48,357 bases of DNA. Origin: Deltaproteobacteria bacterium (GTDB lineage Bacteria; Desulfobacterota; Syntrophobacteria; BM002). Positions 11,151-41,816 of this stretch are shown here, one piece after another. Where the stretch lies: assembly GCA_020353155.1 (NCBI GenBank), contig CP070689.1, positions 2,620,758-2,669,114 on the forward strand, read 5' to 3'. Below the pieces are notes generated by a model. It saw nothing but the letters and a program-made list of their open reading frames with translations, was not told the DNA's origin and did no database searches. The first letter of the stretch is position 1; every line of letters begins with the position of its first letter. A program made the translations under genes and the position numbers.

Positions 11151-11228
11151 GCAAGGCTTCTAGCATAGAGCATAGAGCATGGAGCATAGGGTTCAAATTT
11201 CGAATCTCGAATTGCGAATTTCGAAATT
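11151..11228. repeat. Word-repeat array (GCATAGA and TCGAAT words)
   Basis: Three to four copies of AGCATAGAGC/AGCATGGAGC at 11162-11190, followed by a TTCGAAT/CTCGAAT/TGCGAAT run at 11195-11228 that is itself largely palindromic (AATTTCG...CGAAATT). The GCATAGA words are the reverse complement of the CTATGCC words at 34613-34639. Confidence 0.75.
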
Positions 11229-31793: not shown

Positions 31794-34487
31794 ATGTCCG
31801 CAAAAGAGTCTACACTTTATCTCATAGACGGTAGCGCTTATATTTACAGGGCCTTTTATGCTGTCCGTCACTTGAGTACCTCCTCAGGAATTCCTACCAA
31901 CGCGGTCTACGGATTTCTTGGCATGCTCAATAAGATCCTCAGGGAGAAGGGGCCCAGCCACATAGCCATTGCCCTTGATGCACCGGGACCAACCTTTCGC
32001 CACGACCTCAGCCCCGATTACAAGGCAACTCGTCCTAAAATGCCAGAGGACTTGGCTCAGCAGATTCCATTCATAAAAAGGCTGATTGAGGTTTTAGGCA
32101 TATCCAGCATAGAGATTCCCGGATATGAAGCCGATGACATCATTGGTACTCTTGCAACCTGGGCCAGCGGGCAGGGCGCGAAAGTGGTAATTGTCTCGGG
32201 AGATAAGGATCTGTTGCAGCTGGTGACGCCACAAATACAAATGTGGGATACCATGAAAGATGAGGTTTTTGGACCAGAAGAGGTGGAAGAAAAGTTCGGA
32301 GTCCCCCCTGGCCAGCTGGTTGAAGTAATGGGATTGGCTGGAGATAGCAGCGATAATATTCCTGGGGTGCCCGGAGTAGGTCCAAAGACGGCTCAAAGGC
32401 TGATAAAAGAATTCGGCAGTATTGATAAACTACTATCCCAACTGGAGAGGATCCCCAGAGAAAAAGAACGGGAGAAAATTCAAGCTCACGCCGAGCAGGC
32501 CAAAATGTCACGGGAACTGGCCGAGATTAAATGCGATGTTCCCCTGGCAAAGGACTGGGAGCAGCTGGAGTTGGGCGATAGTGATCGGTTGGGTCTGGTA
32601 GAGTTATACCGGGAGCTGGAATTTAAGAAATTCCTCCAACAGCTGGATGAAGAAAAAGACACCCAAGAGTCCGAAGCGATGAGGGCCGACTATAAGCTTG
32701 TTACTTCCCTAGAAGCACTGGAAAAGCTAATTTCCCGTAGTACAAAGAGCCAGAGGGTCGCCATAAGTGTGATGACTACAGAAGAGAATTATTTTGAGTC
32801 TGACCTTGTAGGTATAGCTCTAGCCTGGGAAGGGGAAAGGGGTTGCCACTACGTTCCCCTTGGTCAGGTTTCTAAGTCTAGCCCTACCCAATTTTCCCCC
32901 TCTTCAGTATTGAGGTTGCTGGCTACAGTCCTTGCCGATTCCGATGTTGACAAAGTTATCCACAATAGCAAAAAGGCTTGGACCGTCTTTAAAAGACTAG
33001 GTATTGAGTTGTCGTCCATCCACTTCGATCCTATGTTGGCCGCTTATGTATTGGACCCAGGCAAGAGGGTGCAAGAGTTAGAGGCCATAGCAAAAGAATA
33101 CCTCAACAAGTCACTGGTTTCTTATGATGATTTGGTGGGTACCGGCAAAAACAGGCAAGCCCTGGTCGATCTGCCGGTGGAGCAACTTCTCTCCTATGCC
33201 GGCGATCAAGCTGTTTATTCCCTGCAATTAGCCACTTCTCTGGAGGAAAAGATCAAAGCCGCCAACCAGACCATCCTATTTAGAGACATTGAAATTCCGC
33301 TCGTCCGAGTGCTGGCCCGCATGGAGATGAAGGGGGTAAAGGTCGATGTGGGGCGCCTGGAGGATCTAGATAGGGACTTTAGTGCTCGCCTGGAGGAGAT
33401 CGTCGAAAGGATTTACCATTTGGCCGGGGAGAGCTTTAACATAAATTCACCGCAACAGTTAGGACAAATTCTTTTTGATAAATTGGCTTTGCCCATGGGT
33501 AAGAAAACCAAGACTGGTTATTCTACCTCCATGGAGGTGCTTTCGGCACTTGCACCTTACCATCTTCTACCCAGGGAAGTGCTCAATTACAGAAGTCTCA
33601 CAAAGCTAAAGAATACCTACGTTGATACTCTACCGCGAATGGTAAACCGAGATACCGGTCGAATACATACGTCCTACAACCAAACCGCTACAGTGACGGG
33701 CAGACTGAGCTCCAGCGAGCCGAATCTTCAAAATATCCCGGTGCGTACTGAAGAGGGAAGAGAAATCCGTCGTGCCTTTGTGGCTGACACGGGTCATTTA
33801 TTGATTTCAGCGGACTATTCTCAAATTGAATTGAGAATCCTGGCCCATTATTCCAAAGACAGAGCGCTGATTGACGCCTTCCAGAAAGGTGAGGACGTGC
33901 ACCTTCTTACGGCGGTGGAGATTTTTGAGGTGGAACCCCACGAGGTTACCGCCGAATTGAGGCGGCAGGCAAAGACCATAAACTTCGGCATCATCTATGG
34001 TATGAGCGCATTCAGGCTCGCCAAGGATCTGGGCATACCTCAAAAGAAAGGCCGTCAGATCTTAGAACGTTACTTTGATAGATATGGGGGAGTTCGGTTA
34101 TATATGGAGGAGACCCCGAAGCTGGGGCGTGAACAGGGATTTGTCACCACCCTATTCAATCGCAAGAGATTCCTGCCAGATCTAAAGAGCCGCAACCGCA
34201 ATGTCAGACAGTTCGCGGAAAGAACTGCAATAAATACGCCCATACAGGGCAGTGCCGCTGATATAATCAAAATTGCCATGATTCGGATTGACGCTGAGTT
34301 GGAAAGAAGAACGCTGCCTGCCAGAATGATCATGCAGGTTCACGATGAATTGGTTTTCGAAGTAGAAGCTAGCAGTGCTCAAGATGTGGCGACTCTGGTA
34401 CAGCAAGAGATGGAATCGGTTACCTCCCTAAAAGTTCCTTTGGTGGTGGATGTAGGGATTGGCTCTAATTGGGATGAAGCACATTAG
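31794..34487 (+). CDS. polA: DNA polymerase I with 5'-3' nuclease and inactivated proofreading domain
   Basis: The 897-residue protein has the 5' nuclease (LYLIDGSAYIYRAFYAV, GYEADDIIGT, DSSDNIPGVPGVGPKTAQRL), a 3'-5' exonuclease-like domain and the polymerase (DYSQIELRILAHYS near residue 673, RRQAKTINFGIIYGMSAF, MQVHDELVFEV). In the exonuclease-like domain all four catalytic carboxylates are lost by alignment with E. coli: Asp355-Glu357 (DTE) corresponds to S-V-M near residues 325-327, Asp424 to Ala395, Asp501 to Gln472. So it should polymerise and remove primers or flaps but not proofread, as in Taq-type enzymes. Coupled to the upstream hypothetical gene. Confidence 0.96.
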   Translation: MSAKESTLYLIDGSAYIYRAFYAVRHLSTSSGIPTNAVYGFLGMLNKILREKGPSHIAIALDAPGPTFRHDLSPDYKATRPKMPEDLAQQIPFIKRLIEVLGISSIEIPGYEADDIIGTLATWASGQGAKVVIVSGDKDLLQLVTPQIQMWDTMKDEVFGPEEVEEKFGVPPGQLVEVMGLAGDSSDNIPGVPGVGPKTAQRLIKEFGSIDKLLSQLERIPREKEREKIQAHAEQAKMSRELAEIKCDVPLAKDWEQLELGDSDRLGLVELYRELEFKKFLQQLDEEKDTQESEAMRADYKLVTSLEALEKLISRSTKSQRVAISVMTTEENYFESDLVGIALAWEGERGCHYVPLGQVSKSSPTQFSPSSVLRLLATVLADSDVDKVIHNSKKAWTVFKRLGIELSSIHFDPMLAAYVLDPGKRVQELEAIAKEYLNKSLVSYDDLVGTGKNRQALVDLPVEQLLSYAGDQAVYSLQLATSLEEKIKAANQTILFRDIEIPLVRVLARMEMKGVKVDVGRLEDLDRDFSARLEEIVERIYHLAGESFNINSPQQLGQILFDKLALPMGKKTKTGYSTSMEVLSALAPYHLLPREVLNYRSLTKLKNTYVDTLPRMVNRDTGRIHTSYNQTATVTGRLSSSEPNLQNIPVRTEEGREIRRAFVADTGHLLISADYSQIELRILAHYSKDRALIDAFQKGEDVHLLTAVEIFEVEPHEVTAELRRQAKTINFGIIYGMSAFRLAKDLGIPQKKGRQILERYFDRYGGVRLYMEETPKLGREQGFVTTLFNRKRFLPDLKSRNRNVRQFAERTAINTPIQGSAADIIKIAMIRIDAELERRTLPARMIMQVHDELVFEVEASSAQDVATLVQQEMESVTSLKVPLVVDVGIGSNWDEAH

Positions 34488-34491
34488 GAGG

Positions 34492-34639
34492 AGATTTCGG
34501 ATTTCGGATTGCGGAATGCGGATTGATGAAAGGCGCAGGGCATTTTTCAGCTAGCAGCAGATAGTAGGCAGCGGACAGCAAAAAGAACAACAGTTCTATT
34601 GTTTTTGAACTCCATGCCCCATGCTCTATGCCCTATGCC
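34492..34639. repeat. Word-repeat array cluster after polA
   Basis: Three different word families are side by side: GATTTCGGATTTCGGATTGCGG (as GGATTTC/GGATTGC words, 34492-34525), CAGCTAGCAGCAGATAG and GGCAGCGGACAGC (34548-34579), and CATGCCCCATGCTCTATGCC (34613-34639). The first recurs at 37378-37462, the second at 46415-46440, the third is the complement of 11162-11190. Confidence 0.75.
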
Positions 34640-34675: not shown

Positions 34676-34705
34676 TTGACAATTAGGTAAGGGGAGGATA
34701 ATAAT
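34676..34705 (+). promoter_or_regulatory. Strong sigma70-like promoter of candidate ncRNA
   Basis: TTGACA (34676-34681), then AATAAT (34700-34705) after 18 bases, or GATAAT (34697-34702) after 15. The predicted start, near 34712, is a few bases before the closing stem of the structure at 34720-35051. The next gene on this strand is over 1 kb away, so the promoter seems to serve the RNA itself. Confidence 0.6.
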
Positions 34706-34711
34706 AGGACT

Positions 34712-35083
34712 GTGGAAGTGAGCTTGCCAGGGACAGGCACAGAATCTGCGTCCACGGAGCGCCGCGCCATTTAATAAGAAGACGGCTAGGCACGCAGGGA
34801 CGTGCCCCAAAAGGAGCCGCTCCTTCCGGAGTTCTTCTGGAAGGAGAGCGACCCCGGCACCATGAGAGCCCCTGCCCTCTTTGGTGTCCGTACAGTGGCT
34901 GGGTAGTGCTCAGGGTTCACCCGCAGATCTGAGCACGAGAGTCATGCGGGTTAGGCCCGACCAGAATGATGTAACCAGGCCACCTGGCGGGCGACAAATT
35001 GTCTGGTATTTTGGACGGCTATCAGTTTCTGTGCCTGTCCCTGGTTAGCTCAAAAAAAACCACCCCTTAGGGGTGGTTTTTTT
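34712..35083 (+). ncRNA. Candidate structured ncRNA of about 370 nt, family not assigned
   Basis: Ends are closed by a long stem: GAGCT..CCAGGGACAGGCACAG (34720-34744) pairs with CTGTGCCTGTCCCTGG..AGCTC (35027-35051), over 20 pairs with two mismatched positions. Inside: GGCAC/GTGCC (34789-34806), CTCCTTCC/GGAAGGAG (34820-34846), GGCACCA/TGGTGTC (34856-34888), and GTGCTCAG/CTGAGCAC (34906-34936) whose loop bases ACCCGCA (34919-34925) pair with TGCGGGT (34945-34951), a pseudoknot. A promoter is in front and a strong terminator directly after. No RNase P (GAGGAAAGTCC), tmRNA, 6S or SRP signature is visible. The alternative is a MITE/REP element: the closing arms are also a perfect terminal inverted repeat, and 12 bases of it (CTGTGCCTGTCC) recur at 41676-41687. 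Confidence 0.5.
35052..35083. terminator. Strong bidirectional intrinsic terminator
   Basis: CCACCCC-TTA-GGGGTGG (35060-35076) with eight A before and seven T after, so it can end transcription in both directions: the plus-strand RNA or polA read-through, and the minus-strand membrane protein gene. Confidence 0.9.
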
Positions 35084-35158: not shown

Positions 35159-35476
35159 TCAGGACTTCTCTTCCTTTTTTATTTTTCCTAGCTCCGACTT
35201 GAGTTGTTCAACTTCTTGCTTGTACTTCTCTGCCTCTTCTTTGTACTTGGGGGCTTCATCGGTGTCCAGAGTTGAAGAAAACTCATCCTCTCTCTTGCTG
35301 AAATATGGAAGCTTGTCTTTCACCTCATCAAAGCCGAGGTAAGCGGCAATAACACCACCAAACAACAGCATTATGGGCAGTCCCCCTGCGACCAGCAGTA
35401 GGAATGCATCCCACCAAACAAGCAAGAGTATGACCCCTAGTACAGCTGCAACAATCCCACCGACAAAAACCGCCAT
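35159..35476 (-). CDS. Small membrane protein with coiled-coil tail, unknown
   Basis: Residues 3-45 of this 105-residue protein are two hydrophobic helices (VFVGGIVAAVLGVILLLVWW and LLLVAGGLPIMLLFGGVIAAYLGF) followed by a charged region and a C-terminal coiled coil (KYKEEAEKYKQEVEQLKSELGKIKKEEKS). I do not recognise the family. The open frame starts at 35605, but AAGGAGG sits seven bases before the ATG at 35476, and the helix starts there. It converges on the terminator at 35052-35083. Confidence 0.65.
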   Translation of the reverse strand: MAVFVGGIVAAVLGVILLLVWWDAFLLLVAGGLPIMLLFGGVIAAYLGFDEVKDKLPYFSKREDEFSSTLDTDEAPKYKEEAEKYKQEVEQLKSELGKIKKEEKS

Positions 35477-35720
35477 GCCATTTCCTCCTTCTTGTAGATA
35501 GCACGAAACTTGCCGGCCACAGAAAGGGAGCGTGAAAAGCCGCTCAGTCCATGCTGATGGCGCGGAAAACCCCTCCCCTATACCATGAGCACCGGGGGAT
35601 TGCAAGATAATTTTGCCCCCTTTAAGGGGACATTATTAATTAACTTGTCCAATTAATGTAGCCTTGCTTTTTGTAGGGATAATCGGTACACGACAAAAGT
35701 CCATTTTTTTGGAAAACTCC

Positions 35721-35749: not shown

Positions 35750-35855
35750 CAATCAACCTTTAGACCTGGTCCGATTTAGCTGTGGATCGGGCATTTGTTG
35801 GAATCGGTGATTGTCTAAAGTAAATGTTTGAACTCGAGGAATAAGGGTGGTGCTT

Positions 35856-37181
35856 ATGGCTAAACCATCAAGAAAAGGTGCAAAATCAGAAGCCGAAGTG
35901 GCGGCAGAGGCAAAGAGGAAAAAGGAGATCCTTGATAAGGTAGCTCAGTCCAACCTACCCACCAAGACAATTTTGAAGGAGTTGGGCATTTCCAGGTCCA
36001 CCTATTACAGTTGGCTCAAGCGTTACGAAGAGGAGGGAGAGGAAGGACTACTGGACAGTCGCTCCCTGGCTGAACCAAGTGAGGAAAAAGTGGAAGTAGC
36101 CCCTCCGGCTGAAGAGGCCGAACCGAAGGAGGTTGCGGTTGAAAAACCCTGGGAACCGGTGGCCGAAGAAGTGAGGGAGGAAAAACCTGAACCTCCAGCC
36201 GCCGAAGAGCCCAAGGTGAAGCCTCCAGAGCCGGTTGTTCCGCCATTGGCCAAGGAGCCCAGGGCAGAGGAAAAAGTGAGCAGACCAGCTCCAACTCCTC
36301 CATTTAGCCGGGGTGAATCTAAAAAGAGCTTTGGCGGCTATGCCTTAATTGCTGTATTGCTCCTAGCTATAGGGTTGCTAGTGAGCATTAGTTTAAGCAA
36401 TTACAACACCTATAAGCTGGTGAAGAATAGCAACAGCCTTACACTATGGAAGGGCAAATTTGCTCCCCGTGGCTTTGAGCAGGTGGAATCCTTTGAGCCG
36501 GTTGTTGTGGGGGACAGTGACGTAAGTGGGTTGACCAACAAGCTCTACACTGGCAAAGCTGCTGTTTATAAAGCCATCTTTGCTTTCTATATGGACCAAG
36601 TGACAGGGGAAACTGCCAAAGGTGATAAGGCAGACATGAGCATGATCAGCCTGCTCCTCGATAGGGCAGAGAATTTTATGGACGGGAACGGCAAACAAGA
36701 AGAGGGCCTGGCCGCTATGCGTTTCAACTTAGCCCAGCAACGTGTTGCCATGGCCGAATTGGGGTTGCAAAAGGCTTACCAAAAGGCACTGCCGATTTAT
36801 CAGGAAGCTCTTAAAGCTGGATTGGCAGACAGGGCCATGTTGGAGGCCAAAGTAGAAACCATGGAGCAAACATTGGGACTCCTTCCAGCCCAACCACCAG
36901 CCGAAGAACCTGAGACCGCTCCAGGGGCGGAAACAATAACCGAAGAACCTGAGGCCACCGCCACCCCGGAAGAAAAACCAGCCGAAGCAGTCGTAGCTCC
37001 TAAAGAGGAAGACAAACAAGGGGAGACTGAAGTCGCGGCTGAACCGGCTGCCGAAGCCGGCGAGAGTGTGACAGAAGAAAAGGAGACCGAAGCTCCTAGC
37101 GAGCCGGCCAAAGGTGAGGAGACAACCGAGAAGTCCAGCGGTTTTAAAGAGTGGCTGAAATCAAAACGCTCCCAGTTGTAG
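35856..37181 (+). CDS. Membrane-anchored HTH protein with acidic-proline linkers
   Basis: The N-terminal 70 residues hold a transposase/HTH_28-like helix-turn-helix (ILDKVAQSNLPTKTILKELGISRSTYYSWLKRYEEEG). An acidic, proline-rich linker of about 85 residues leads to one membrane helix (YALIAVLLLAIGLLVSISLS, about 164-184), then an about 170-residue extracytoplasmic helical domain (DQVTGETAKGDKADMSMISLLLDRAENFMDGNGKQEEG; LNLAQQRVAMAELGLQKAYQKALPIYQEALKAGL) and a second low-complexity E/P/A-rich tail. The layout recalls RodZ (cytoplasmic HTH, membrane helix, periplasmic part) but the HTH is of a different type. A GTG at 35847 with GAGGA in front is an alternative start; ATG at 35856 has AAGGGTGG. 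Function unknown. Confidence 0.7.
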   Translation: MAKPSRKGAKSEAEVAAEAKRKKEILDKVAQSNLPTKTILKELGISRSTYYSWLKRYEEEGEEGLLDSRSLAEPSEEKVEVAPPAEEAEPKEVAVEKPWEPVAEEVREEKPEPPAAEEPKVKPPEPVVPPLAKEPRAEEKVSRPAPTPPFSRGESKKSFGGYALIAVLLLAIGLLVSISLSNYNTYKLVKNSNSLTLWKGKFAPRGFEQVESFEPVVVGDSDVSGLTNKLYTGKAAVYKAIFAFYMDQVTGETAKGDKADMSMISLLLDRAENFMDGNGKQEEGLAAMRFNLAQQRVAMAELGLQKAYQKALPIYQEALKAGLADRAMLEAKVETMEQTLGLLPAQPPAEEPETAPGAETITEEPEATATPEEKPAEAVVAPKEEDKQGETEVAAEPAAEAGESVTEEKETEAPSEPAKGEETTEKSSGFKEWLKSKRSQL

Positions 37182-37380: not shown

Positions 37381-37462
37381 GGATTTAAGATTGCGGATCG
37401 TAGATTTCAACTACAGAATCTAATTGTGAAACCCTCAAATCCGCAATCTGCAATCCGCAATG
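37378..37462. repeat. Word-repeat array (GATTGCGGATT) with inverted copy
   Basis: Left arm 37378-37408 (GGATTTAAGATTGCGGATCG) and right arm 37434-37462 (AATCCGCAATCTGCAATCC) are complementary words about 25 bases apart. Related to 34492-34525. Confidence 0.75.
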
Positions 37463-41665: not shown

Positions 41666-41816
41666 TATCAGGAAACTGTGCCTGTCCTCGACGGCTAGAT
41701 ATTTTTTCGATCTCTTCTGGAGTGTTGGAGCAATGGAGTATCGGAGTACTGATAAAAATGGAAGGAGTTTGACCTCAGATTTGTCATTACTCCAATTCTG
41801 TTGTTGCACGAATTGC

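Follow-up and report, generated by a model that had tools for sequence, protein, structure and literature searches.

A candidate structured RNA gene with three consecutive pseudoknots beside polA in one family of Desulfobacterota

Large structured RNAs are rare in bacteria, and several of those that are understood have proved to be central machines (RNase P, tmRNA, SRP RNA). The pseudoknot half of tmRNA is ring-like and contains tandem pseudoknots; OLE acts together with a small membrane protein encoded beside it. OLE, ROOL, GOLLD, and raiA are large ornate RNAs, and ornate RNAs were solved in 2025 (PMC12286853). The Soda Lake RNA (smtA motif, HRC-65-1) is found in Thioalkalivibrio, upstream of smtA (PMC11109978). 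The vicinity of polA is also a place where sRNAs are encoded: sX13 and Spot 42 lie beside this gene, as does α-r7; sX13 and α-r7 each form three stem-loops whose apical loops are C-rich, sX13 is 115 nt long and restricted to one family, and its authors raised the question whether other polA loci encode sRNAs (PMC3771888).

The RNA analyzed here lies downstream of polA in a Deltaproteobacteria bacterium (contig CP070689.1 of assembly GCA_020353155.1). The window, that is, the whole stretch of DNA that was analyzed, comprises 48,357 nucleotides. A preliminary description, made from the letters alone, had proposed a free-standing structured RNA gene with one pseudoknot at positions 34676–35083. 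The features of the locus, in window coordinates, are as follows.

31794–34487, + strand: polA (DNA polymerase I), the upstream neighbor in homologs whose contig reaches it
34676–34705, + strand: σ70-type promoter, TTGACA-18-AATAAT, 11 of 12 consensus positions, predicted start ∼34712
34719–35054, + strand: body of the structured RNA, conserved in 12 homologs (336 positions in covariance model R1)
34721–34753, + strand: P1 closing stem, 5′ strand, pairing with 35013–35050
34761–34786, + strand: P2 hairpin, GCCG (34761–34764)/CGGC (34783–34786), nearly invariant, its support being conservation only
34790–34805, + strand: P2b hairpin, GCACG/CGTGC, with one compensatory change from A-U to G-C
34816–34852, + strand: P3 hairpin, base mostly GTYGC/GCRAC, tip variable (p = 0.006)
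34855–34903, + strand: pseudoknot 1; S1 is P4 (34855–34861/34883–34890, inner part 34865–34868/34877–34880), S2 is 34870–34876/34897–34903
34906–34951, + strand: pseudoknot 2; S1 is P5 (34906–34917/34926–34936), S2 is 34919–34925/34945–34951
34955–35007, + strand: pseudoknot 3; S1 is P6 (34955–34964/34984–34992), S2 is 34974–34980/35001–35007
35013–35050, + strand: P1 closing stem, 3′ strand, pairing with 34721–34753
35053–35083, no strand assigned: terminator hairpin, which in this genome is bidirectional; it also ends the convergent gene
35159–35479, − strand: gene of a 106-aa small membrane/coiled-coil protein, the convergent neighbor of the RNA

A BLAST search against 60 relatives detected the RNA in eight of nine further genomes from the genus and in each of the family's three other genera. 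Homologs are present in 12 of the 13 genomes of this one family (uncultured Desulfobacterota MAGs). The remaining one has a contig that stops 231 bases past polA, so that the RNA is present in 12 of 12 genomes in which its presence can be judged. Where measured, homologs are 66–90% identical to the copy in the window, and the alignment is shallow, as its 12 sequences come from one family. The covariance model R1 recovered the same 12 loci with 249–370 bits; neither the 43 remaining genomes of the class nor, in a phylum-wide sample of 297 genomes, the remaining families gave anything convincing, and at sister-family polA loci the sole match was one of 44 bases (E = 0.011). When a 28-nt core pattern was scanned over 84,980 GTDB species, 10 contigs were retrieved, all carrying the RNA and labeled as Deltaproteobacteria, Desulfobacterota, Desulfobacteraceae, or Syntrophobacterales MAGs; the scan demands exact core bases, and a strongly diverged relative could escape it. 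A search of phages and plasmids found no copy of the RNA, and 12 pattern matches in viral contigs were dismissed as chance on the basis of their model score. In the 3.21-Mb genome itself, the 408-base stretch occurs once.

The order polA, RNA, and convergent small membrane protein gene is the same in all homologs as far as their contigs reach. The distance between polA and the RNA varies, the RNA itself being fixed, and for the most part conservation is lower in the flanks than in the RNA, a difference clearest among closer relatives. This fixed locus is consistent with vertical inheritance. Many relatives in the class but outside this family have polA and this membrane gene side by side and lack the RNA, the end of the membrane gene lying ∼70–145 bases past polA. 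Because the RNA is lacking at this junction in other families, it was probably gained, or became recognizable, in the ancestor of its Desulfobacterota family. Several families of the class have the gene of the 106-aa protein next to polA; no Pfam family was found for this protein.

Several further elements were observed in the surroundings. A 444-aa protein encoded at 35847–37181 combines an N-terminal transposase-like helix-turn-helix with an apparent membrane segment; relatives with contigs extending that far encode it at the equivalent place, and it is unusual, possibly membrane-anchored. Intergenic runs of TTTCGGATTGCGGA-like heptamers occur at 34495–34522 and 37384–37460 (6 matches versus 0.43 expected), and runs similar to the TTTCGGATTGCGGA heptamers follow a gene in relatives. 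A 23-base repeat of the CCCCATGCTCTATGCCCTATGCC type is present at 34617–34639 and, on the − strand, at 11162–11184 (two occurrences versus 0 expected); the former copy lies just upstream of the promoter of the RNA.

The minimum free energy computed for the fold is −190.4 kcal/mol, compared with a mean of −136 for shuffled sequences (z = −8.7), and none of 100 dinucleotide shuffles was as good. RNAalifold, applied to the 12-sequence alignment, returned the closing stem together with a number of nested helices. In the model adopted, a P1 clamp of ∼30 bp would enclose three hairpins (P2, P2b, and P3), followed by three H-type pseudoknots in succession, giving a ring-like arrangement. In this structure, taken without P3, 98.2% of the paired cells of the alignment hold standard pairs, and 23 pairs show compensatory changes, against 8.0 for shuffles, none of 500 reaching this number. 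Sliding the partners by 1–3 columns made pairing fall to 33–42%. A phylogeny-aware null was also applied, in which the parsimony changes of each column were placed randomly, 1,000 times, on a FastTree tree derived from the same RNA alignment. Against this null, total covariation was 369 versus 85 expected (P < 0.001), and unpaired cells numbered 28 versus 142 expected (P < 0.001). Of the invariant columns, 106 of 127 are paired. As read from this alignment, the + strand RNA sequence is demonstrably under selection to keep the modeled ring-like fold with its clamp and three pseudoknots.

The closing stem, which the preliminary description had recognized as a perfect inverted repeat, is present, but its arms (34719–34748 and 35023–35052, 30 nt each) are 90% complementary and hence not perfect. 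Twelve pairs in P1a, P1b, and P1c have changed on both sides (phylogeny-aware null: P1a and P1b, P < 0.001; P1c, p = 0.018). The compensatory changes that had been suggested as a check were thus found in the arms, but not in the pseudoknot recognized at that time, which is almost invariant. The internal hairpins that had been listed are present in the sequence. The tip of P3 is misaligned, yet a hairpin folds there in every homolog, in most of them with the base GTYGC/GCRAC.

A scan for complementary column stacks added two loop-to-downstream helices to the one already described (34919–34925 with 34945–34951), which is kept in 12 of 12 homologs but is one of three rather than the sole pseudoknot. 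In each, a hairpin loop (of P4, P5, or P6) pairs seven bases with the strand just downstream; the S2 strands are CCCTGCC/GGCTGGG, ACCCGCA/TGCGGGT, and ACCAGGC/GTCTGGT in pseudoknots 1, 2, and 3, respectively. S2 of pseudoknot 1 covaries (p = 0.006), with five standard pair types at one of its pairs. In pseudoknot 2, P5 covaries (p = 0.003), and S2, 100% paired in every homolog, is nearly invariant and therefore shows no covariation. S2 of pseudoknot 3, likewise 100% paired, contains one compensatory change from A-U to G-C and four G-U pairs (p = 0.12). Covariation in the alignment suggests the strongest support for pseudoknot 1 and weak support for pseudoknot 3; taken together, the pseudoknots reach p = 0.009 under the phylogeny-aware null, and their helices exceed shuffles in covariation score. 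RNAalifold also proposed nested helices that would compete with the pseudoknots; these are well paired, but their covariation hardly surpasses that of shuffles (50 of 500 scored at least as high), and they were rejected.

In an RNA transcribed from the + strand, an A-U pair may turn into G-U, but not into A-C. Read on the + strand, the alignment contains 89 G-U/U-G cells versus 9 A-C/C-A cells, which identifies + as the RNA strand. The near-consensus promoter is present as described before, and TTGACA is found in 9 of the 10 homologs with upstream sequence, at a similar distance to P1; the exception (L015) has TTGAAG, but a good TATAAT. The terminator is bidirectional in this genome, where A and T runs stand on both sides of the hairpin at 35053–35083, but for the + transcript it is not conserved. 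The hairpin and the run serving the convergent gene are kept in 12 of 12 homologs, but the + strand T-run (U-tract) is absent in 7 of 12 and weak in 2, which renders the 3′ end of the RNA uncertain. A protein-coding reading was rejected: no conserved ORF was found across the homologs, the longest open frames are not shared, lying in different frames and on different strands from one homolog to another, in line with the earlier remark that there is no ORF of note, and indels break the frame.

None of the 4,227 families of Rfam 15 matched the locus at the gathering threshold, and a permissive scan gave no match either; sub-threshold matches there are nearly all to terminator hairpins. At the loci of divergent homologs, too, no family reached threshold. 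This outcome of the Infernal/Rfam check speaks for the structured-RNA reading. The reported lack of RNase P, tmRNA, 6S, or SRP RNA signatures agrees with the finding that each of these genes sits elsewhere: RNase P RNA (RF00010) at G000:C1:1408802-1409155 (267 bits), SRP RNA (RF00169) at G000:C1:3125805-3125902, and 6S RNA (RF00013) at G000:C1:174354-174535. Two more sub-threshold 6S matches, at G000:C1:1336164-1336342 and 2735364-2735543 (43 and 32 bits), are possible extra copies. A search of the literature found no description of the RNA at the polA locus. It is a real, previously uncatalogued gene and forms a new RNA class, outside every RNA class tested; its newness is limited to the class, as large structured orphan RNAs are already known as a broader kind.

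The reading as a structured RNA gene is upheld by compensatory changes, single copy, fixed synteny, and the lack of an Rfam match. With moderate confidence, we favor the view that 34712–35083 is a free-standing noncoding RNA gene of ∼370 nt. Transcription would start at the conserved promoter-like sequence (∼34712), and the RNA would adopt a compact tertiary fold with P1 as its clamp and act as a discrete transcript in trans, either as an RNA machine or as a ribonucleoprotein scaffold. Action in trans is suggested by the conservation of a rigid multi-pseudoknot core with invariant bases, and by the lack of a cis-regulatory target: the next gene is convergent and, hence, no reading frame follows that the RNA could control. 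The analysis brought up neither a partner protein nor a target. More tentatively, and with somewhat less than even chances, the RNA may be a lineage-specific machine (a ribozyme, RNA-only assembly, or ribonucleoprotein core) unrelated to catalogued RNAs, in which a 30-bp clamp keeps three consecutive pseudoknots in a ring; it would have arisen beside polA in one family and become fixed there.

Among the alternatives, a base-pairing sRNA of the sX13/Spot 42 type, the loops of which would act on target mRNAs, fares best and merits consideration, although it appears unlikely. It would account for the polA-side locus shared with sX13 and Spot 42 (PMC3771888), for the C-rich character of two of the three pseudoknotted loops (CCCTGCC and ACCCGCA), and for the restriction to a single family, as in sX13. 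However, the RNA is about three times longer and has no Rfam match, its loops take part in conserved pairs with downstream strands, and the invariant columns are, as noted, mostly paired. The conserved core is mostly rigid rather than made of free seed regions, which favors an RNA machine or ribonucleoprotein scaffold over a base-pairing sRNA.

Still less probable, at perhaps one chance in ten, is a cis-acting element, that is, a structured 3′-UTR belonging to either polA or the convergent gene and serving to protect or terminate the mRNA. Such a role would fit the position of the RNA, which follows polA immediately and on the same strand, and the terminator shared with the convergent gene. 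Against it stand the conserved promoter-like sequence between polA and the RNA and the variable spacing between the two; relatives with the same two genes manage without the RNA, and three pseudoknots are needless for a terminator or a 3′ clamp.

We regard it as very improbable that the RNA is a derived tmRNA paralog, stripped of the tRNA-like and coding parts but with the closed pseudoknot ring retained, despite the resemblance of the long closing stem and three tandem pseudoknots to the pseudoknot half of tmRNA. The tmRNA model (RF00023) finds true tmRNA genes elsewhere in the same genomes and never matched the RNA locus, the permissive Rfam scan gave no match, ARAGORN detected no tRNA-like domain in the window, and the RNA, the ends of which are joined directly by P1, has neither a T-arm nor a tag frame. 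A replacement of tmRNA by the RNA was suspected when RF00023 gave no full tmRNA in the genome, and was discarded because relatives with the RNA have ordinary tmRNAs. The tmRNA gene of this genome (tag ADDYVYAVAA; L048:561-780, − strand; G000:C1 about 50,060–50,280) enters an N stretch in its 3′ part, which is why tmRNA searches miss it; a weak match to the permuted-tmRNA family at this gene is most likely an artifact of the N gap.

A MITE/REP-type mobile element, with terminal inverted repeats mimicking a closing stem, can be rejected: the 30-nt, 90% complementary arms and the confirmed recurrence of a 12-base piece at 41676–41687, beside other short pieces of the element, speak for it, but it predicts scattered copies, the check for which found no second one in the genome, and each genome has one copy in a constant slot, with compensatory changes in body and pseudoknots and with G-U tolerance confined to one strand. 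The pieces at 41668–41700, just past a gene end (TATCAG-gaaa-CTGTGCCTGTCC then GACGGCTAG), correspond to the 3′ clamp strand and the P2 region of the RNA and are either chance or a relic; they are absent from the same gene end in two relatives.

For this RNA, the RNA-less version of the same gene junction in sister families makes the origin datable, and the covariation-supported model with three tandem pseudoknots is amenable to probing, cryo-EM, and pull-downs. Compared with sX13, Spot 42, and α-r7, it shares the site downstream of polA, the narrow taxonomic range, and C-rich hairpin loops, but differs from sX13 in its length (∼370 versus 115 nt), long closing stem, three pseudoknots, and lack of an Rfam match. 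With tmRNA it has in common a similar length and a closed ring with several consecutive pseudoknots, but not the tRNA-like domain or the tag frame. Like OLE, ROOL, GOLLD, and raiA, it is a large ornate RNA; ROOL and GOLLD also contain pseudoknots and are likewise orphan RNAs. It is, however, shorter than OLE, ROOL, and GOLLD, has no Rfam match, and is not phage-borne, and the adjoining membrane protein also occurs in relatives without the RNA. The Soda Lake RNA resembles it in being restricted to a single lineage, in its size of >330 nt, in its covarying stems, and in its orphan status (PMC11109978); it occurs in other organisms and at another locus, the two being set apart by description and by the Rfam 15 non-match.
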